Shown one piece after another: positions 55,253 through 64,000 of a stretch of 64,000 nt of DNA. The first letter of the stretch is position 1, and the number at the start of each line of letters is the position of its first letter. Below the pieces are notes generated by a model. It had not been told where the DNA came from. It was given only the letters and a program-made list of their open reading frames with translations, and ran no database searches. Source of the stretch: Brevundimonas sp. LM2. Its GTDB lineage: Bacteria; Pseudomonadota; Alphaproteobacteria; Caulobacterales; Caulobacteraceae. The position numbers and the translations under genes were made by a program. The stretch spans positions 1 through 64,000 of the forward strand of contig NZ_CP019508.1 of NCBI RefSeq assembly GCF_002002865.1. Direction: 5' to 3'.

Positions 55253-55389
55253 GCAGGGCCTCCTAGCACATCGCCGGCTCCTTTCGCCTCCTGTGCACAA
55301 CCGGAACAAACCGCGAACACCCCCTTGCCCCCGCCCCCCACAGGGCCCTAGATCGCCCCCGGGTCGGCGCCCGCATCGAGTTCAGTATC

Positions 55390-55584
55390 GTGATCCCTCC
55401 CGACCCCGCCGCCCCCCTGCTCGCTGCCGTGCGCGGGCTGGACCTGTCCAGCGCCGACGGCCGCGCCGGCATCCGCTGCCTGCTGGCCGAGATCGAGCGC
55501 CTGTCCCCCGGCGCCGTCCAGCAGCAGGCCGCCGCCCTCCAGCTGCGCGCCCTCGGCTGCCCTCCGCCCGCAGAGCGGTCGTGA
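55390..55584 (+). CDS. 64-residue small protein
   Basis: GTG 55390. IPPDPAAPLLAAVRGLDLSSADG and LLAEIERLSPGAVQQQAAALQL look helical. No family recognised. The next gene begins 3 bases after its stop, so they form an operon. Opposite in direction to the terminase. Confidence 0.5.
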   Translation: MIPPDPAAPLLAAVRGLDLSSADGRAGIRCLLAEIERLSPGAVQQQAAALQLRALGCPPPAERS

Positions 55585-55587
55585 ACC

Positions 55588-55845
55588 ATGACGCCGCAAC
55601 AGGTCCGCGCCGACCACACCCTCCGGGCCCTGATCGACTGCGGCCGCTGCAACCGCATGCGGTCGCTCAGCGTCGGGGCCATCCCCCGCCGCTGGCAGAC
55701 CACCGACCTGGGCCGCATCCCGTTCCGCTGCTTCACCTGCGGCGAGCGCCCCACCCGCGTCCAGGTCGAGCGCGGCTGGGGCCCCCAGCACGAGACGGTG
55801 TGGACCTGGTCCCTGCGCGAGGGCGGCCACCCCGCGGGGATGTGA
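55588..55845 (+). CDS. small zinc-ribbon-like protein
   Basis: 85 residues. Two Cys pairs, CGRC near 18 and CFTC near 48, suggest zinc binding. The C-terminal 29 codons (55756-55845) reappear in degenerate form at 57939-58028 on the other side of the terminase. The stop is 4 bases from the end of the terminase gene. Function is unknown; location suggests a phage-like origin. Confidence 0.6.
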   Translation: MTPQQVRADHTLRALIDCGRCNRMRSLSVGAIPRRWQTTDLGRIPFRCFTCGERPTRVQVERGWGPQHETVWTWSLREGGHPAGM

Positions 55846-55849
55846 GGCC

Positions 55850-57688
55850 TCAGCCCCCCGCCAGCCCCGGCCGCCCCGCCGGCCAGTCCAGCAGCCGGAT
55901 CCGCGGCCCCTCGCCCCCCGACCGGTCGATCAGCAGGTCCGTCAGGGCCCAGACCAGGGCATCCGCCCGGTCCAGGTCCCAGCCCGCCTCGTCGCCCCCG
56001 ATCGCCATCAGCTCCTCCTCCAGCGCCCCCAGCCCCGGCGCATGGGTGACCCGGCCCTGCTCGTACAGGGCCGCCACCGGCTCGGCCCGGATCCGCTTGC
56101 CCTTCGTCGCCCGCACCTCGCGGATGCGCACGGCGCAGCCCGCCGTCTTCAGCACCGCCCGCACCATCTCGCCCCCCTGGTTGACCTCGACCACCAGGGC
56201 GACCGCGCCGAATTCCTCGGCCGCCCGCACCGCCCGCCGCGCCCACCCGTCCGGCCCCAGCCCCGCCACCGAGCGATCCGCCAGCACATGGGCGCGGTCC
56301 CCCGCGCGCCCCGCCACCACGATCCCGCAGGCATTGCCCCCCGCCGTCGTCGTCGGATCGATGGCCACGACGATGCGGTCGAAGGAGGGACTAGGGACTA
56401 GGGAGTGGGGAGTAGGGAGTAGGGATTGGAGATCAGAACCCGGCTCCAAAGGTTCGCGCGCACGGCCGTCCGTCCCCCCTTCCCTAGTCCCTACTCCCCA
56501 CTCCCTACTCCCTAATCCCTCCCTCGCCCGCCCCATCATCTCCGCCGTGAACAGCGCCCCCTCGACGTCCACCACCCGCCCCTCCAGCTCCTGCGCCGCC
56601 TTGCGCGTGCCGCCGTACAGCCGCTCCAGCCCCTCGACGAAGCCCGCCGCCAGGTTGGCCGCATTGTCCCGCGTCGCCGCATGCGTCTCCACCAGCCCCG
56701 GCTCGGCCCTCAGGTCCCTCAGCGCCCCGATCGGCTTCGGCGTCGTCGTCACCACCAGCCGGGGCCGCTCTCCCAGCCGCAACCCCATCCGCAACAGCGC
56801 CAGCGTCGCCCCCGGCCCGCCCCGCCCGCGCGGCCAGGCGCAGAATTCGTCCGCCCAGGCCGCCGCGAACTGCGGCCCCCGCAGCGCCTCCGGGTCCTCG
56901 GCGGAAAAGGCCTGGGCCACCGCCCCGTTCGGAAACACCAGCCGTTTCCTCGACGGTTCGAACACCGGCCGCACCCCGCCCCATTTCGGATCGTTCCAGC
57001 GCGCCAGCGCGGCGATCCCCGACACGCCCTCGACCATCACCTCGCGCACGTCGTGCAGACTGCCCCCGATCAGCGCCAGCCGTCCCCCGGCCCCCAGCGC
57101 CTCCGCCTGATCCGACAGCCACACCGCCCCCGCCCGCGTCTTCCCCGCCCCCCGTCCCCCCAGGAACAGCCACGTCGTCCAGTCCCCCTCGGGCTCCCTC
57201 TGCGCCGCCCGCAGCTCAGGCTCGCACCACCCTTCTCCCTCCCCCTGAGGGGGAGGGTCGTCGCCCTCTTGGGCGACGGGGTGGGGACGGCCCGGCGACC
57301 CAACCCCATTCTTCAACCGCCGCACCGCCCGCGCGCTCTGCGTCAGCGCCAGAAAGTCCGGCAGCCGCCCCTCGTCCGCCGCCCGCCGCGCGCGCTCCAG
57401 CGCCCGCGCCTCGGACCCCTCCAGGTCCAGGGGATCGAAGGCGAACCCCCGCGCCACCACGGGATCGGGCGCGGGGGTGATCGGTGGCGGCTGCGACCAG
57501 CGATAGACCGCCCCCGGCCGGTCCTTCTTGCGATAGCCCCGGTTCCGCGCCTGCCAGTTCATGGCCGACACGCTGACCCCGTGCTCGTCCGCCAGGGCGC
57601 TGGCGACCTCCCCGGCCACATAGCGTTCCAGCAGGGCGATCCACACGTCCTCCGCCAGCTTCGATCGTCCCGGCCGCCCTGTCCCCAT
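55850..57688 (-). CDS. phage/GTA-type large terminase with fused HTH N-terminus
   Basis: About 612 residues. Residues 1-60 resemble a small-terminase-type helix-turn-helix (LAEDVWIALLERYVAGEVAS then SVSAMNWQARNRGYRKKDRPG). Walker A GGRGAGKTRAG (177-187), Walker B WADE region near 278, nuclease Asp in VAIDPTTTAGG near 444. Similar to the TerL of RcGTA-like gene transfer agents. Two repeat elements are translated in frame: residues about 128-152 (CTCCCTCCCC family) between HTH and ATPase, and about 390-435 (GGGACTA family) between ATPase and nuclease. No portal, capsid or tail genes are adjacent. Confidence 0.85.
   Translation of the reverse strand: MGTGRPGRSKLAEDVWIALLERYVAGEVASALADEHGVSVSAMNWQARNRGYRKKDRPGAVYRWSQPPPITPAPDPVVARGFAFDPLDLEGSEARALERARRAADEGRLPDFLALTQSARAVRRLKNGVGSPGRPHPVAQEGDDPPPQGEGEGWCEPELRAAQREPEGDWTTWLFLGGRGAGKTRAGAVWLSDQAEALGAGGRLALIGGSLHDVREVMVEGVSGIAALARWNDPKWGGVRPVFEPSRKRLVFPNGAVAQAFSAEDPEALRGPQFAAAWADEFCAWPRGRGGPGATLALLRMGLRLGERPRLVVTTTPKPIGALRDLRAEPGLVETHAATRDNAANLAAGFVEGLERLYGGTRKAAQELEGRVVDVEGALFTAEMMGRAREGLGSREWGVGTREGGTDGRAREPLEPGSDLQSLLPTPHSLVPSPSFDRIVVAIDPTTTAGGNACGIVVAGRAGDRAHVLADRSVAGLGPDGWARRAVRAAEEFGAVALVVEVNQGGEMVRAVLKTAGCAVRIREVRATKGKRIRAEPVAALYEQGRVTHAPGLGALEEELMAIGGDEAGWDLDRADALVWALTDLLIDRSGGEGPRIRLLDWPAGRPGLAGG
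56385..56523. repeat. CTAGGGA/TCCCTAG inverted tandem repeat inside terminase (family B, copy 3)
   Basis: Left arm 56385-56428: GGACTAGG and GGAGTAG words. Right arm 56477-56523: CCCTAGT, CCCTACT words. The loop is about 48 bases. It lies in the coding frame and adds about 46 residues (SREWGVGTREGG and LLPTPHSLVPSP) between the ATPase and nuclease halves, with no stop codon in the frame. Confidence 0.85.
57232..57299. repeat. half of a CTCCCTCCCC-family element inside terminase
   Basis: CTTCTCCCTCCCCC with GGGGGAGGGTCGTCGCC and GGGCGACGGGGTGGGG match the left half of copy 1. It contributes about 24 residues (NGVGSPGRPHPVAQEGDDPPP) between the HTH and ATPase regions. The right half of the element is absent. 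Confidence 0.75.
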
Positions 57689-57816
57689 CCGGCGATGATA
57701 AGCCAGCCCGTAACCCGGGCGAGTTTAGCCCCGTCTTGGCGAACCCGCCCCTTGAAATTAAAGCGCGATTCCGCCCCATCGCGGACAACTCGGACGCTTC
57801 AGACGGACACCCCCAA

Positions 57817-57862
57817 TCCTCCCCCATCGGGGGAGGGGGACCGCCGAAGGCGGTGGAGGGGG
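57817..57862. repeat. CTCCCCC-palindrome near the terminase start
   Basis: CCTCCCCCATCGGGGGAGG is a hairpin; followed by ACCGCCGAAGGCGGTGGAGGGGG, a second one. This is a short relative of the CTCCCTCCCC family. Confidence 0.6.
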
Positions 57863-57916
57863 CCAAGGCTCCCGGCTCTTCGGGCGAAAGCGCCCCGTCC
57901 GCCCTACAACGGCTTT

Positions 57917-57945
57917 GTCATCCCCGCGAAAGCGGGGACGCATCC
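57917..57945. repeat. GTCATCCCCGCGAAAGCGGGGA repeat unit (family F)
   Basis: GTCATCCCCGCG then AAAGCGGGGACGCATCC: a short palindrome of a type found in many proteobacterial intergenic spaces. It ends exactly where the truncated paralog begins, so it may have been the break point. Confidence 0.65.
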
Positions 57946-58028
57946 AAGTCGAGCGCGGCTGGGGCCCCCAGCACGAGACGGTGTGGACGTGGTCGCTGAA
58001 GGAGGGGGTGCACCCGGCGGGGGTGTGA
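57939..58028 (+). pseudogene. truncated 3' end of the 85-residue gene (paralog of 55588-55845)
   Basis: Frame RIQVERGWGPQHETVWTWSL then KEGVHPAGV and stop. It matches codons 56-85 of the intact gene with about 12 base changes in 90, mostly synonymous or mild, so the copy is old. It flanks the terminase in direct orientation with 55756-55845. Confidence 0.8.
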
Positions 58029-58135
58029 GGGTACTGTTGCGGCAGACGGAGCGGGCACTACGTGCTGAGACACGTTTCCAGTTGGCAGCACACGGTGGCC
58101 GTGCAAGCTTATGCTTCGCAATCGGGGTTCGCTCG

Positions 58136-58495
58136 GTGAAAGACTATCAACACAGAGTCGAGGAATGGCTTGTCGCCTGTTTCCCCCCCGAGTCATGGTC
58201 AAACAAGCATGAGCGTGTTCATCGCTTCCTCGAGGAGTCATTGGAGCTCGCTCAAGCGCATGGGTGCTCGAAGGAAGACGCCATTACGCTAGTCTCATAC
58301 GTCTACGGGCGTCCGACCGGCCAGCCAGATGCAGAAACCGGCGGCGTACTGGTGACGCTGGCGGCATTGTGCAGCGCTACTGAGGTCGACTTGGCTGGCG
58401 CAGGCGAGCGTGAGCTTGCCAAAAACTGGGCGCGAATAGACGCGATCAGACAAAAGCAAGCGTCCAAACCACCTGGGTCGCCGCTGCCGGAGTAG
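58136..58495 (+). CDS. MazG-like NTP pyrophosphohydrolase
   Basis: About 119 residues from GTG 58136. The all-alpha NTP-PPase pattern is visible: VHRFLEESLELAQAHG (E-x-x-E type metal ligands) and ETGGVLVTLAALCSATEVDLAG with the second acidic set. Such enzymes cleave NTP/dNTP to NMP; phage relatives remove dCTP or dUTP. The gene is first in the AT-richer island. GTG is chosen since it lies just before KDYQHRVEEW; the frame is open upstream. Confidence 0.75.
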   Translation: MKDYQHRVEEWLVACFPPESWSNKHERVHRFLEESLELAQAHGCSKEDAITLVSYVYGRPTGQPDAETGGVLVTLAALCSATEVDLAGAGERELAKNWARIDAIRQKQASKPPGSPLPE

Positions 58496-58526
58496 GCACG
58501 GCCAGACGGACTTTTAGGCGCAATCC

Positions 58527-58853
58527 TTGATCATCTCTTTCGAGACGCAGGTGCTACAAGACATATGCTGTAGCATTGGCGCGGCAGAAGCTGAGCTTGG
58601 CCCCGGACATGCAGGAGCACTCATGACTGCTCTTGCGGAGATGGAGGCGTTTACGACCGCAGCGGAGGTCCTCGAGTTTCGGGCTGAAGACGCCGAGCTT
58701 CACGCGGACGATTCCCTTTCATTCGCGGTTGGTCCAGTCTACGTCGCAACGTTCGTCCCGGTCGGCACGAAAATTACACGTGATGCCTGCGGTAAAGTTG
58801 ACTGGAAGAGTGTCACTCGATTGAAAATCCTGACCCTTTGGAAGCGCTCATGA
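58527..58853 (+). CDS. HigB/RelE-like toxin
   Basis: About 108 residues from TTG 58527 (no ATG suits). ISFETQVLQDICCSIGAAEAELGPGHAGAL and the end VDWKSVTRLKILTLWK match the RelE/HigB-type toxins paired with XRE proteins. It overlaps the next gene by 4 bases (ATGA), the usual toxin-antitoxin layout with the toxin first. Confidence 0.75.
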   Translation: MIISFETQVLQDICCSIGAAEAELGPGHAGALMTALAEMEAFTTAAEVLEFRAEDAELHADDSLSFAVGPVYVATFVPVGTKITRDACGKVDWKSVTRLKILTLWKRS

Positions 58854-59944
58854 GCAATCAGCTGACCTCCACTGATTGGTTTTCAAAGCCCGGTGATTCG
58901 ATGCGTGCTGCAATGCAGCGCAAAGGAAAGTCTGCCGACGACCTAGCATCTCATCTAAACGGCGGCCTCCAGGAGGTTCGTGGGCTTATGGAGGGGTCGC
59001 TCGCAATCGACGAGAACACCGCTGGTGCGTTGGCAAGAGCGCTTGGAGCAACCTCGACGTTCTGGCTCCAACGTCAGGCGAACTACGAAATCTCATTAGA
59101 ACGAGCGGTTAGCGCCGCACTTCCGCGCGTTGATGAGTGGCTAGACGTCGTGCCCACGCCAGGGCCTGCGCGGCGCGGCCAGTTTACCGAGGAAGCAATG
59201 CGAAGCGAGTTGGAGCGCCGACTCGTATTCTTTAGCGTGCCGACTTTGGATGCTTGGCAACAGCGGTACGGCAATGTTTTCTCAGATACCAAATTTCGGA
59301 CATCGCCAAGTTTTCAATCCTCCAAGGCAGCTACAACGCTTTGGCTAAGACGAGGAGAATTGGAGGCCGATCTGGCGATCACGAAGCCGTTCCGAGAATC
59401 TCGCTTGCGTGAGGTGTTGCCTGCGATCAGGGAGCTAACTCGGATAAGCAAACCTGACCGCTTCCTGCCAAAACTAAAAGTGCTGTGCGCTGAGGCGGGC
59501 GTAGCAGTTGTTGTAGTGAAGACGCCTTCAGGATGCCATGCCAGCGGTGCGAGCCGAATGATTTCAGCCGATAAGGCTATGATGCTACTAAGTTTCCGCC
59601 ATCGTGCCGATGACCATTTTTGGTTTACCGTCTTCCACGAGTTAGGCCATCTTATACTGCATGGAGGTCAAACCTTTGTGGATGCAGAAGACACGATTGT
59701 CGATGCGTTAGAGCAGGAGGCGAATCAATTCGCCGCTGATTGCATCTTGCCTGATTCAGAACGAAGTCAGTTAGCTTCACTCTCTCCGGATCGCAGATCG
59801 GTTCTCAGCTTTAGTAAGATTAACGGAATATCTCCTGGCCTTACTGTAGGGCAAATGCAGCATCTGAAGTTAATTAGTCATAGCAAGCTTAACTCGCTTA
59901 AGCGCAGATGGGCTTGGGCTGACATCGACCCGGCTCTAGTCTGA
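58850..59944 (+). CDS. XRE-family protein with ImmA/IrrE metallopeptidase domain
   Basis: About 364 residues. HigA-like HTH at 20-80 (KGKSADDLASHLNGGLQEVRGLM, abridged) and a C-terminal ImmA/IrrE peptidase with HELGHLILH (263-271) and Glu near 290 (EQEANQFAAD). Partner of the HigB-like toxin: probable antitoxin, and possibly a protease that cleaves a repressor on stress. Start ATG 58850 inside the toxin stop. It ends 1 base before the convergent gene stop. AT-richer than the surroundings. Confidence 0.85.
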   Translation: MSNQLTSTDWFSKPGDSMRAAMQRKGKSADDLASHLNGGLQEVRGLMEGSLAIDENTAGALARALGATSTFWLQRQANYEISLERAVSAALPRVDEWLDVVPTPGPARRGQFTEEAMRSELERRLVFFSVPTLDAWQQRYGNVFSDTKFRTSPSFQSSKAATTLWLRRGELEADLAITKPFRESRLREVLPAIRELTRISKPDRFLPKLKVLCAEAGVAVVVVKTPSGCHASGASRMISADKAMMLLSFRHRADDHFWFTVFHELGHLILHGGQTFVDAEDTIVDALEQEANQFAADCILPDSERSQLASLSPDRRSVLSFSKINGISPGLTVGQMQHLKLISHSKLNSLKRRWAWADIDPALV

Positions 59945-59945
59945 T

Positions 59946-60854
59946 CTATCCTTTAAAATGAACGAATTTATTGGGACTTTTTTGCCAGTTACACAATGAA
60001 TCTTCTAATACTGACATTCCCACTCCGAGATCATCGTCCAACATGGTCAGTTTTTCTTGGAGCTGCTTGGGACTCAGCGGTCCCTTTATCACTCCGGTGA
60101 ACAGCAGACTCACCCCGCCTCTTGGCCCGGTGGCTCCCGAAAGGTAAGCGGAGGTCGGGCTGATATTTGCAAGGCCGTATCGGCTGACCAGCATCAAGTA
60201 GTCAAAGCGAGCGAGTCTACCGAAACTTTTGACCACAAAAGCGCTGTAGAGGCCGTCAAATGGGTCGTTGCCGCCCTGCTTAGTTAGCTGCGAGAAACGG
60301 GCGGCGTGGCCTCCACTCCCAATCCAAGAAACGTAACTCTCGACAACTTCGCCGGTGTAGAGCTTTGCCCCCGGTCGAAGACTTTGGTACTTTCGATGAT
60401 TACCAAACTTTCCTCCAATATTCTGCCAATTGGCCTTGAGCCAAAGGTTTACTGAATTTGGAGAGTTTTGCACGGTCGCCCAATCCCAGCGCCCGCTACC
60501 CAGTTTTCCGTAAAAATCCCGTAGTCGAAGCCAACCGCTATCCGCAGGCTTTGCGAAGTGCGTCATCAGAAAAATTAGCCAAAACGCTTCATCCAAATTT
60601 CCTGCCGCCTTATGAAACGCTACAGCTCGCTCTGGATCGAACCGGGGATCCAACGGATCTGCCCTGAAGTCTGCTGCCGGCTTTGATTGGATGGCCTTGT
60701 AGAAGTCCTCACGCCTCAAGCTGGCAACAATCTGTAGTGCCAATACCTCCTGAGCAGATTTGCTAGATATTCCAGGCAAAGGCTGTCGATGCAGATTATG
60801 AACCGCTAGAGCATTTGATATTCGGAGGCGATCAGCTTCTCGACTTGGCCACAT
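59946..60854 (-). CDS. alpha-glutamyl/putrescinyl thymine pyrophosphorylase-like protein
   Basis: About 302 residues. The pattern FWLIFLMTHFAKPADSGWLRL, FGRLARFDYLMLVSRYGL, SAYLSGATGPRGGVSLLF and VGMSVLEDSLCNWQKSPNKFVHF fits the DNA-glycosylase-fold group predicted to act on hypermodified thymine (clade 3 in naming of Iyer, Burroughs and Aravind). I name it by memory of the sequence pattern, not by search. It is 11 bases downstream of the thymidylate-synthase-like gene on the same strand. AT-rich. Confidence 0.65.
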   Translation of the reverse strand: MWPSREADRLRISNALAVHNLHRQPLPGISSKSAQEVLALQIVASLRREDFYKAIQSKPAADFRADPLDPRFDPERAVAFHKAAGNLDEAFWLIFLMTHFAKPADSGWLRLRDFYGKLGSGRWDWATVQNSPNSVNLWLKANWQNIGGKFGNHRKYQSLRPGAKLYTGEVVESYVSWIGSGGHAARFSQLTKQGGNDPFDGLYSAFVVKSFGRLARFDYLMLVSRYGLANISPTSAYLSGATGPRGGVSLLFTGVIKGPLSPKQLQEKLTMLDDDLGVGMSVLEDSLCNWQKSPNKFVHFKG

Positions 60855-60865
60855 CGTATTCGGTC

Positions 60866-61828
60866 CTATTGCCGCTTCAACGGTGCGCGAACGGCCATGG
60901 TTTTTCTGGCATCAATGTATGGGAAATACATTGGCTCATGAAGCTGCTCCTTCAGTTTATCCAACTTTTCTGGTTGCCCGCTTGCCCAATACGCCTCGAC
61001 TAGAATGATTATGTCCTTCCAGTACGCATTGCTCTGCAGCGCTGCACCGATTGGTTCGCCGTGCCTTATACTATCTTCCGCCGCCAATATGGCCGGTACG
61101 AGTGCAAAGTTATCACCTATCGGCATTTCCGGCATGGGTGCCGGTCGTTGGTAACCTTCAGACACGTATGATTTCATATCGTCGTAAAAATTATCATATA
61201 CGTGCATGCTTCCAGCATAATGCATGTAGGTGCCGAGCTCTACGTTGAGTCTTCTTGCTATAAGCTCTTGCATCATCGTAAAGCAGAACACGTCGTGCGG
61301 AAGGCCCCAATACGCGTCATTTGAGCGCATAGTTACTGATAAGTGAAGCCCATCTTCTCTAAGGTGAAACTGAAGAGTTGTCGTACATGGAATTTCTTTT
61401 TTATCGATGGCTATATCTTCAGCATTGAACAGCTGAATGACTGCTCGCCTGGTGCCAGGTTTACGACTTAGAATCGAGATAATGGAATCAATTTGGTTGA
61501 TTCCGCGCATATCGAAAAGACGGGGCCCGTAGGCCCCCTCAATGATGCCATTGACAACTTCGTCTCTATAGATCGGGACGTAGGGTTCGATGAATCCGAG
61601 ATCTTCGCGGCCCGATAAATACCAAAGTAGTTCGCCCAAGGCGCTAAACGTCTTGCCTCGATTTTCCGAGCGGCTCAGGCGTGCACGAGGATTAGAAACG
61701 TGGAGAGAGACGCCTAAAATCTCAAAATTTGATCCTCGGCTGCCCTCTTCATTTCTGCGGGTGGTTTTTCCCAACGCATTGTAAAGTTGGATAAGAACGT
61801 CATCGAGACTATCGCCACTGCATTCCAT
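60866..61828 (-). CDS. thymidylate synthase-like / deoxynucleotide hydroxymethylase-like protein
   Basis: About 320 residues. ThyA superfamily core: catalytic Cys in EIPCTTTLQFHLRED, RSNDAYWGLPHDVFCFTMM where the ThyA motif RSxDxxxGxPxN has Asp for Asn, then GTYMHYAGSMHVYDNF with His and Tyr. The Asn-to-Asp change is the one seen in T4 dCMP hydroxymethylase, which prefers dCMP. ATG 61828 is chosen over GTG 61834 since AAGGG lies about 7 bases before it. It is first in a two-gene operon with the pyrophosphorylase-like protein. Confidence 0.82.
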   Translation of the reverse strand: MECSGDSLDDVLIQLYNALGKTTRRNEEGSRGSNFEILGVSLHVSNPRARLSRSENRGKTFSALGELLWYLSGREDLGFIEPYVPIYRDEVVNGIIEGAYGPRLFDMRGINQIDSIISILSRKPGTRRAVIQLFNAEDIAIDKKEIPCTTTLQFHLREDGLHLSVTMRSNDAYWGLPHDVFCFTMMQELIARRLNVELGTYMHYAGSMHVYDNFYDDMKSYVSEGYQRPAPMPEMPIGDNFALVPAILAAEDSIRHGEPIGAALQSNAYWKDIIILVEAYWASGQPEKLDKLKEQLHEPMYFPYIDARKTMAVRAPLKRQ

Positions 61829-61945
61829 GTCCACACCCTTGCCTGCGCGAGGATAGCCGTACAGGTTGTGGGCCTGTCAACTGGCGCGCGCGATACGAGA
61901 TGTCGTCCTTCAGCCAGCCGCTAGCTCTGCGACAGATCCCGCCCC

Positions 61946-64000
61946 CTAGTGCGCCTCATCCCAGTTCCCCGCCGCCCGCGCATCCACCACCAGCGGCACA
62001 CTCAGCGCCACGGCCGGCTCCGCCGCCCCCTCCATGATCCGCTTGATCAGGGGGATGGCCACCTCGACCTCCGCCTCCGGGGCCTCGAACACCAGTTCGT
62101 CGTGCACCTGCAGCAGCATCCGCGTCTCCAGCCCCGCGGCCTCAAGCGCGCCCGGCATGCGGATCATGGCGCGGCGGATGATGTCGGCGGCGGCGCCCTG
62201 GATCGGGGCGTTGATGGCGGCGCGTTCGCCGAACTGGCGCTCGGCCCCCGATTTGGAGTGGATGGCCGGGATGTGGATCTTGCGGCCGAAGACGGTCGAG
62301 ACGAAGCCCGCGGCGCGGACCTCGGCGCGGGTGGCGTCCATATAGGTGCGGATGCCGGGGAAGCGTTCGAAATAGGTCTTGATATAGGCCCCGGCCTCGC
62401 CCTGATCGATGCCCAGCTGGTTGGCCAGGCCGAAGGCCGAGATGCCGTAGACGATGCCGAAATTGATGGCCTTGGCGCGGCGGCGCGTCTCGGGGTCCAT
62501 GTCGGCGACGGGGACGCCGAACATCTCGGACGCCGTGGCCGTGTGGATGTCGATCCCGGCCTTGAAGGCGCGCTTCAGCTCGGGGATGTCGCCGATATGG
62601 GCCAGCAGGCGCAGCTCGATCTGGGAATAGTCGGCGCTGATCAGGACGTGGCCGGGGGCGGCGATGAAGGCCTGGCGGATCTGGCGGCCTGTTTCCGTGC
62701 GGATCGGGATGTTCTGCAGGTTGGGGTCGCTGGAGGCCAGGCGGCCGGTGGTGGCGGCGGCCAGTTGATAGCTGGTGTGGATGCGGTCGGTCTCGGGGTC
62801 CATGGCGGCGACCAGGGCATCGGTATAGGTGCCCTTCAGCTTGGCCAGCTGGCGCCATTCCAGGATCGCGCGCGGCAGGTCGTGGGTCAGGGCCAGGGTC
62901 TCCAGCGTGGCGGCGCCGGTCTCCCACTGGCCGCTGGCGGTCTTCTTGCCGCCCGACAGGTTCAGCTCGCCGAACAGCAGCTCGCCGATCTGTTTGGGGC
63001 TGCTGATCGTGAAGGGGCGGCCGGCCAGGGCGTGGGCCTGGGCCTCCAGCTCGGCCATCTTCAGCCCGAACTCGGACGACAGGCGGCGCAGGCGGGCGGG
63101 GTCGACGCGGATGCCGGCCCGCTCCATGTCGGCCAGGACCGCGGGCATGCCGCGCTCCAGCGTCTCATAGACGGCGACCAGCTGCTGCTCGGCCAGACGG
63201 GGCTTGAGGATGGACCACAGCCGCAGGGTGACGTCGGCGTCCTCGGCGGCATAGGCGGTGGCCGGTTTCAGCTCGACGTGTTTGAAGGATTTCTGCGCCT
63301 TGCCGGTGCCGGCGACCTTCTTGAACGGGATCGGCTCGTGGCCCAGGTGCAGGCGGCTCAGCTCGTCCATGCCGTGGCCGTGCAGGCCCCCTTCGAGCAC
63401 GTAGGAGATCAGCATGGTGTCGTCGATCGGGGCGACGCGGATGCCCCGACGCGCCATGACGGCCATGTCGTATTTGCCGTTCTGCATGACCTTGAGGACG
63501 CCGGGGTCCTCCAGCAGGGTCTTCAGCCGGAGGAGCACCGTGGGCTTGTCCAGCTGGTCCAGCGGGGTGCGGGTCTCGCCGCCCTCGCCGCCGAAATCCA
63601 GCCCGCCCGATCCCTCGACCGGCGGATGCTCATGCGTCAGCGGCACATAGCAGGCGTCGTTGGGGCCGATGGCCAGGGAGACGCCGCACAGCCCGGCATG
63701 GGTCGCCGACAGGGCGTCGGTCTCGGTGTCGAACCCGACCACCCCCGCCTTCCGGGCCCTTTCGATAAAGGCGTCCAGCTGTTCCAGGGTCTGGATACAG
63801 GCATAGGCGTCGTGGTCGACGGCCTGTTTTTCGACGTCGGCCGGGACCGCCTGGGGGGCGTAGCGGGGGGAGATGACGGGGGCGCTGAGGGGGGCGGGGC
63901 GGACGGGGGCGAAGGCGGAGCCGTCGTGGCCCTCCAGCCTGCCGTCGCCGACGCGGCGCAGCAGGGAGCGGAACTCCATCGCCTCCAGGAAGTCGGCCAG
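61946..64000 (-). CDS. polA: DNA polymerase I, partial at window end
   Basis: The 3' three quarters or so of the gene: 3'-5' exonuclease domain with GFDTETDALSATHAGLCG, the polymerase palm and fingers with ADYSQIELRLLAHIG, RRRAKAINFGIVYG and MLLQVHDELVFEAP. The 5' exonuclease part is outside the window (the frame continues to the edge without a start). The exonuclease acidic residues are present, so it should be an active proofreading Pol I. It lies right after the AT-rich island. Confidence 0.96.
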   Translation of the reverse strand: MADFLEAMEFRSLLRRVGDGRLEGHDGSAFAPVRPAPLSAPVISPRYAPQAVPADVEKQAVDHDAYACIQTLEQLDAFIERARKAGVVGFDTETDALSATHAGLCGVSLAIGPNDACYVPLTHEHPPVEGSGGLDFGGEGGETRTPLDQLDKPTVLLRLKTLLEDPGVLKVMQNGKYDMAVMARRGIRVAPIDDTMLISYVLEGGLHGHGMDELSRLHLGHEPIPFKKVAGTGKAQKSFKHVELKPATAYAAEDADVTLRLWSILKPRLAEQQLVAVYETLERGMPAVLADMERAGIRVDPARLRRLSSEFGLKMAELEAQAHALAGRPFTISSPKQIGELLFGELNLSGGKKTASGQWETGAATLETLALTHDLPRAILEWRQLAKLKGTYTDALVAAMDPETDRIHTSYQLAAATTGRLASSDPNLQNIPIRTETGRQIRQAFIAAPGHVLISADYSQIELRLLAHIGDIPELKRAFKAGIDIHTATASEMFGVPVADMDPETRRRAKAINFGIVYGISAFGLANQLGIDQGEAGAYIKTYFERFPGIRTYMDATRAEVRAAGFVSTVFGRKIHIPAIHSKSGAERQFGERAAINAPIQGAAADIIRRAMIRMPGALEAAGLETRMLLQVHDELVFEAPEAEVEVAIPLIKRIMEGAAEPAVALSVPLVVDARAAGNWDEAH

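Follow-up and report, generated by a model that had tools for sequence, protein, structure and literature searches.

Why should a bacterial chromosome carry, side by side, a relative of thymidylate synthase (TS) and a protein of the aGPT-Pplase3 family? The question is raised by an AT-rich island in the window studied here, a stretch of 64,000 nucleotides from Brevundimonas sp. LM2 (contig NZ_CP019508.1, positions 1-64,000, forward strand). Hypermodified bases have been known chiefly as a means by which phages shield themselves. The present data favor, tentatively, a cassette that spreads horizontally, is controlled in a toxin-antitoxin-like manner and hypermodifies a pyrimidine, most probably cytosine, with conflict with phages or mobile elements as its likely purpose.

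A convergent cassette of at least five genes

The original prediction described a two-gene cassette; the pair stands, but the unit comprises five genes or more, in convergent arrangement. On the reverse strand, the TS-like gene (60866..61834, -) is followed after 11 bases by the gene for the aGPT-Pplase3 protein, hereafter aGPT (59946..60854, -), the coordinates and the gap being as first described. Convergent with these runs a forward-strand arm that ends in a gene for a protein combining an HTH domain with an M78 (ImmA/IrrE-type) metallopeptidase domain bearing HExxH (HTH-M78; 58850..59944, +), and in the window the stop codons of the two arms lie 1 base apart. Upstream in the same arm are a gene for a small protein (58527..58853, +), whose 3' end overlaps the ATG of the HTH-M78 gene by 4 bp, and a gene with a GTG start for a probable MazG-like nucleotide pyrophosphohydrolase (58136..58495, +). 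The open reading frame (ORF) of the TS-like protein opens with GTG at 61834, and its homologue P0121 (320 amino acids) points to the ATG at 61828 as the likely start; that of HTH-M78 opens with TTG at 58838, and the ATG at 58850 is the likely start. The island itself is as AT-rich as first noted, with a GC content of 0.51-0.58 in 1-kb segments of 58-62 kb against 0.69-0.75 in 54-58 and 62-64 kb, and scans for flanking repeats, tRNA and promoters around the cassette gave nothing useful.

The same order, TS then aGPT, converging on HTH-M78, the small protein and, in one clade, the MazG-like gene, is seen in other loci. Among 104 aGPT loci (L004-L097, L146, L160-L168), tblastn and profile searches over the whole of each fetched locus, without restriction to the neighbors of aGPT, found TS in 102, HTH-M78 in 100 and the small protein in 96, counts that lean to close relatives because the best-scoring relatives were kept (the best 80 of 102 for aGPT loci from genome contigs, the best 80 of 134 for viral TS loci), and that come from loci that are not independent, since viral loci duplicate genome loci (e.g., L087/L009, L088/L011, L089/L016) and L096 and L097 duplicate each other. 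TS was lacking in L018, whose contig ends inside the TS gene, and in L168. When viral contigs were instead searched from the TS gene, the best 21 loci, L169-L189, all with E values no higher than 1e-61 (14 contigs already in the aGPT scan and 7 new), held aGPT in 21 cases and HTH-M78 in 20, and the remaining 59 (L190-L248) held neither, including L190, which reaches 40% identity over a partial TS match. Across 87 loci, with near-copies and incomplete loci dropped, the four core proteins show correlated distances (r 0.78-0.90), and for each pair 0 of 499 permutations gave a correlation as high.

The second arm is inverted and lies 1.1 kb away in the Sorangium locus L080, and a solitary, divergent aGPT-Pplase3 gene (L168:1651-2559) has no TS or HTH-protease arm within the 8 kb fetched. 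A small DUF4031 protein (PF13223) occurs in 11 of the 104 loci, often directly upstream of the TS gene (L047, L048, L060, L064, L069, L073 and others). TS appears broken into two pieces in L010, L059 and L068, aGPT has an internal stop in L059, and the HTH-protease is in two pieces in L049.

The two enzymes and the convergent arm

The TS-like protein belongs to PF00303 (7.2e-26), and its best PDB match is the CMP 5-hydroxymethylase MilA (1.1e-39). It matched 8 NCBIfam models of thymidylate synthase but reached the cut-off of none (its best score was 88.1 bits, where 174.55 is required), and elsewhere in the genome lies another gene, ThyA-like, whose TS match is of full strength. An Asp had been proposed to occupy the position of ThyA Asn177, and alignment to PDB TS chains and to the genome's own ThyA does place the Asp codon at 61292-61294 there. 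This Asp is found in 120 of 120 homologues and in 92 of 93 related loci, the sole exception being the broken copy in L059, and both sets have Cys146, Ser167 and a Thr at position 147 without exception. The window protein also has the catalytic Cys, Glu58, Arg166, Asp169, His207 and Tyr209; all of these are present in 93 of 93 loci save Glu58, present in 88. At the two sugar-selecting positions the window protein has Arg129 and Ser171; at position 126, 74 of the 93 loci have Arg, 17 have Lys and 2 have a gap, and the sugar-selecting Ser is present in every one. Passages of PMC5175136 give Asp as the mark of cytosine enzymes and Arg with Ser as the mark of deoxyribonucleotide enzymes, and a passage of PMC8670742 reports that positions 177 and 147 differ between the TS of modified and unmodified contigs. 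From Asp177 together with Arg and Ser, the predicted substrate is dCMP rather than CMP or dUMP, both a hydroxymethylated and a methylated product being compatible with the sequence. As the Asp points to cytosine chemistry, the word "thymine" in the Pfam name of the partner need not describe its substrate.

This partner matches PF18746 (aGPT-Pplase3) at 7.5e-105, with 350.7 bits against a cut-off of 25 over model positions 3-279 of 279, and is the only such match in the genome. It also matches PF18724 (amino acid:DNA transferase, ADDT) at 1.4e-64, with 218.5 bits against a cut-off of 26.2, as does PUGT, gp46 of phage PaMx11. Both family assignments of the original prediction are thus upheld, and the aGPT-Pplase group in bacteria is an already named Pfam family. 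Family match, alignment of the Asp and co-occurrence of the two genes in other genomes, the points on which that prediction staked itself, did not refute it. The predicted fold of aGPT appears closest to the phage DNA glycinyltransferase PUGT and then to HhH DNA glycosylases in a second look with VIA-align, which re-examines Foldseek candidates only, so that a fold missed by Foldseek could not appear; PDB searches with the protein and with its alignment gave no useful match. The base kinase HMUDK is not among the recurrent genes of the loci, and HMUDK_hel and HMUDK_HMUD1 were not found in the genome by searches that had no positive control. In PADLOC-DB 2.0.0, no model matched the TS-like protein or aGPT except a chance-level Cas5 (0.039, TS-like).

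In the convergent arm, HTH-M78 matches PF06114 (5e-9) and scores on the PADLOC models PD-Lambda-2_B (2.9e-20) and RmrA (RosmerTA); it remains below the NCBIfam HigA cut-off (25 bits against 47.7). Its HExxH is kept in 99 of 100 homologues of the loci. The small protein is probably HigB/RelE-like in part, as hhalign aligns it with HigB-like_toxin at a probability of 93.7 over 79 columns, with the C-terminal part unaligned; a Pfam search, and a PDB search with its alignment, gave no useful match. The assignment of the third protein as probably MazG-like comes from a weak profile match to MazG-like 4qgp (E 0.0035) and from a motif, EExxE...ExxG/D, that is present in 35 of 35 homologues, ExxG replacing ExxD in a 15-row alignment; it has no Pfam match, and PHROG MazG-like was matched only at 0.33. 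A passage of PMC7824862 suggests that MazG-like enzymes of jumbo phages may be able to degrade nucleotides with unmodified bases.

Other loci hold an extra gene, not present in the window, that has a predicted UDG fold and for which a Pfam search gave no useful match. The MazG-like gene is present in 35 of the 104 loci and the UDG-fold gene in 26, both in none and neither in 43. That the two are direct substitutes was considered and set aside: they never co-occur, but in the aGPT tree the MazG-like gene is found in a single supported clade only (33 of its 42 rows), so that the exclusivity may be only a matter of ancestry.

Spread and genomic setting

The cassette is rare in any one group, crosses phyla with a patchy distribution, and is found on plasmids and putative prophages. 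PF18746 occurs in 4 of 398 same-phylum genomes, the window's included, three with the full core and one (L168) with the solitary aGPT. Its one occurrence in 385 same-class genomes is the window's own, and aGPT is found in 2 of 61 same-genus genomes. A tree of 95 aGPT proteins nevertheless spans at least five phyla, and one Planctomycetota row, from a metagenome bin, groups within the 42-row clade to which the window and every MazG-like copy belong. Eight plasmid records carry aGPT, and all 6 that were fetched have TS, aGPT and HTH-M78. No match to aGPT was found in 50,697 phage records, and some loci lie on IMG/VR viral contigs. Within the fetched stretch, 14 of 94 loci have a tyrosine integrase and 9 have a serine recombinase, one example of each being Pfam-confirmed; beyond the genes named, no gene family recurs in more than 14 of the 94 loci, shadow ORFs being judged by position.

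Some individual settings may be recorded here. On the phage-plasmid-like Pantoea plasmid pFC61912-B_D (L162), the cassette stands beside a restriction endonuclease gene, and head-processing, lysis and ddrA genes are present. In six related Rhodobacterales-like loci (L005, L006, L008, L084, L085, L086) it adjoins a large VapE-like/Toprim protein, as in prophages and satellites. A PADLOC scan of flanking ORFs (116 of 118 drawn from 451 candidates, two very long ORFs being left out) found, among the 25 commonest families and with no control set, methyltransferases in up to 3 proteins and mad3 in 2.

In the window, polA and an HI0933-like gene are 6.6 kb apart (stretch 55309-61946). In 14 same-genus stretches (L132-L145) the corresponding gap is 0 bp in L133 and 1.7-5.8 kb in six, and the HI0933-like gene was not found in seven, with 5-10 kb fetched for each. 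This stretch is possibly an insertion hotspot. A lone phage-type terminase large-subunit gene (Terminase_6N/6C; 55850-57688, -) of host-like GC adjoins the AT-rich island, so that the original statement that phage structural genes are lacking does not strictly hold for the neighborhood. Relatives of this gene are present in two of the same-genus stretches, L142 (partial) and L144.

Proposed mechanism, rivals and comparison with known systems

Taken together, these data allow a model to be proposed, in which both the chemical steps and the anti-phage purpose are what we infer from the genes. Judged by its residues, the TS-like enzyme would use methylene-tetrahydrofolate to convert dCMP to 5-hydroxymethyl-dCMP, which host kinases and polymerase, for which the cassette supplies no gene, would then incorporate into DNA. 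By its family and its DNA-glycosylase-type fold, aGPT may flip the modified base and join an amino acid or amine to the 5-hydroxymethyl carbon. Activation of the hydroxyl finds no explanation in this scheme, because no base kinase is encoded beside the cassette. The HTH-M78 protease and its HigB-like partner may sense infection or lift repression, and the MazG-like protein or, in some clades without it, the UDG-fold glycosylase may serve to clear or excise unwanted nucleotides. A fuller version of this model is possible but doubtful: a bacterial, non-viral immunity by cytosine hypermodification, in which a protease-linked switch of toxin-antitoxin type would turn on synthesis of 5-hydroxymethyl-dCMP, a transferase of glycosylase fold would join an amino acid or amine to cytosine in DNA without need of a base kinase, and the UDG-fold or MazG-like protein would protect the host. 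If true, the cassette would do with cytosine what phages do when they hypermodify thymidine, and would be turned against phages. The tie between a cytosine-type TS, an ADDT relative and an HTH-protease/HigB-like arm suggests that bacteria themselves use such chemistry, and the cassette offers a compact, testable gene set for a predicted class of defense, with possibly a new modified base.

In a mark-and-excise scheme, which seems unlikely, the TS-like enzyme puts modified cytosine into new DNA and aGPT, with its fold of DNA-glycosylase type, or the UDG-fold partner removes it, the outcome being breakage of fast-replicating phage DNA or death of the infected cell. The UDG-fold gene is missing from 78 of the 104 loci, however, and aGPT shares PF18724 with the characterized PUGT, a transferase by its PDB title. 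It is likewise rather improbable that the cassette is anti-restriction cargo, with which prophages, plasmids and integrative elements protect themselves from host restriction by modifying their DNA in the manner of lytic phages. In favor are the loci that lie on IMG/VR contigs, close to recombinases or, in 6 members of a single related group, beside the VapE-like replication gene, and also the Pantoea plasmid, where phage-like head and lysis genes accompany a cassette placed next to a restriction endonuclease gene. However, the absence of matches among the phage records argues otherwise, no fixed replication gene travels with the cassette, since no further family exceeds 14 of the 94 loci, and the toxin-antitoxin-like arm is conserved nearly as well as the enzymes.

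Explanations outside DNA modification fare worse. Because MilA is the best solved relative of the TS-like protein, a nucleotide-derived metabolite or antibiotic comparable to mildiomycin could be imagined, in which the second protein conjugates a hydroxymethyl nucleotide outside DNA. This is very unlikely, and a mildiomycin-like pathway was rejected on residues and partner genes: the sugar-selecting residues are the Arg and Ser of dCMP/dUMP enzymes and not the Lys and Ala of MilA, though Lys occurs in 17 of the 93 loci, the family of the partner is named for DNA-acting transferases, and no other family of enzymes was seen repeatedly. A spare thymidylate synthase beside an unrelated neighbor would account for the PF00303 membership, but scarcely merits belief and was already disfavored; the scores below every matched NCBIfam cut-off, the separate ThyA, the substrate-site residues with Asp177, and linkage in 102 of 104 loci led to its rejection.

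The nearest phage system is that of Pseudomonas phage PaMx11, whose hypermodification genes comprise TS gp51, HMUDK_hel gp50, the P-loop gene gp49 and the ADDT/PUGT gene gp46, and whose PUGT acts on modified deoxyuridine according to the title of 8z2n. Position 177 of the PaMx11 TS is Asn, of the uracil type, whereas that of the cassette is Asp. PaMx11 possesses HMUDK_hel and a P-loop gene whose match to HMUDK_HMUD1 is weak and stays under the cut-off, whereas the cassette has neither beside it. Unlike PaMx11, the cassette includes a second, convergent arm with HTH-M78 and the small protein, and it resides in bacterial genomes, plasmids and putative prophages. From a phage thymidine-type pathway it is set apart by a cytosine-type TS and by the lack of an adjoining base kinase. 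MilA and, in passages of PMC5175136 and PMC8670742, the dCMP hydroxymethylase of T4 are TS-superfamily enzymes with Asp for cytosine, as in the cassette; MilA differs in having Lys133 and Ala176 in place of Arg and Ser, and in its genomic setting. The second arm recalls HigBA in its small, overlapping upstream gene partly like HigB, although the C-terminal part of the small protein fails to align with the end of HigB. HTH-M78 resembles HTH-proteases of the RmrA and PD-Lambda-2 types but, unlike them, accompanies TS or aGPT in 100 of the 104 loci.

Literature searches did not find an architecture of two arms, a TS of cytosine type, the lack of a kinase or the UDG-fold/MazG-like alternatives, and Iyer 2013 may describe bacterial aGPT operons. 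The closest bacterial comparison is provided by DefensePredictor (PMC13092281, 2026), passages of which place aGPT-Pplase among predicted, unvalidated defense domains and count thymidylate synthase and 5-hydroxymethyluracil kinase among the domains of validated systems. An M78 protease, the small protein and a TS of cytosine type are not mentioned in those passages. The legend of its Fig. 6F, which includes a predicted aGPT-Pplase system, lists among its abbreviations aGPT-Pplase, HTH and UDG, gene kinds that also occur in the cassette family. What the systems in those passages have in common with the cassette is the presence of enzymes that modify nucleotides or bases within bacterial gene sets tied to phage defense, a tie that for the cassette is predicted.
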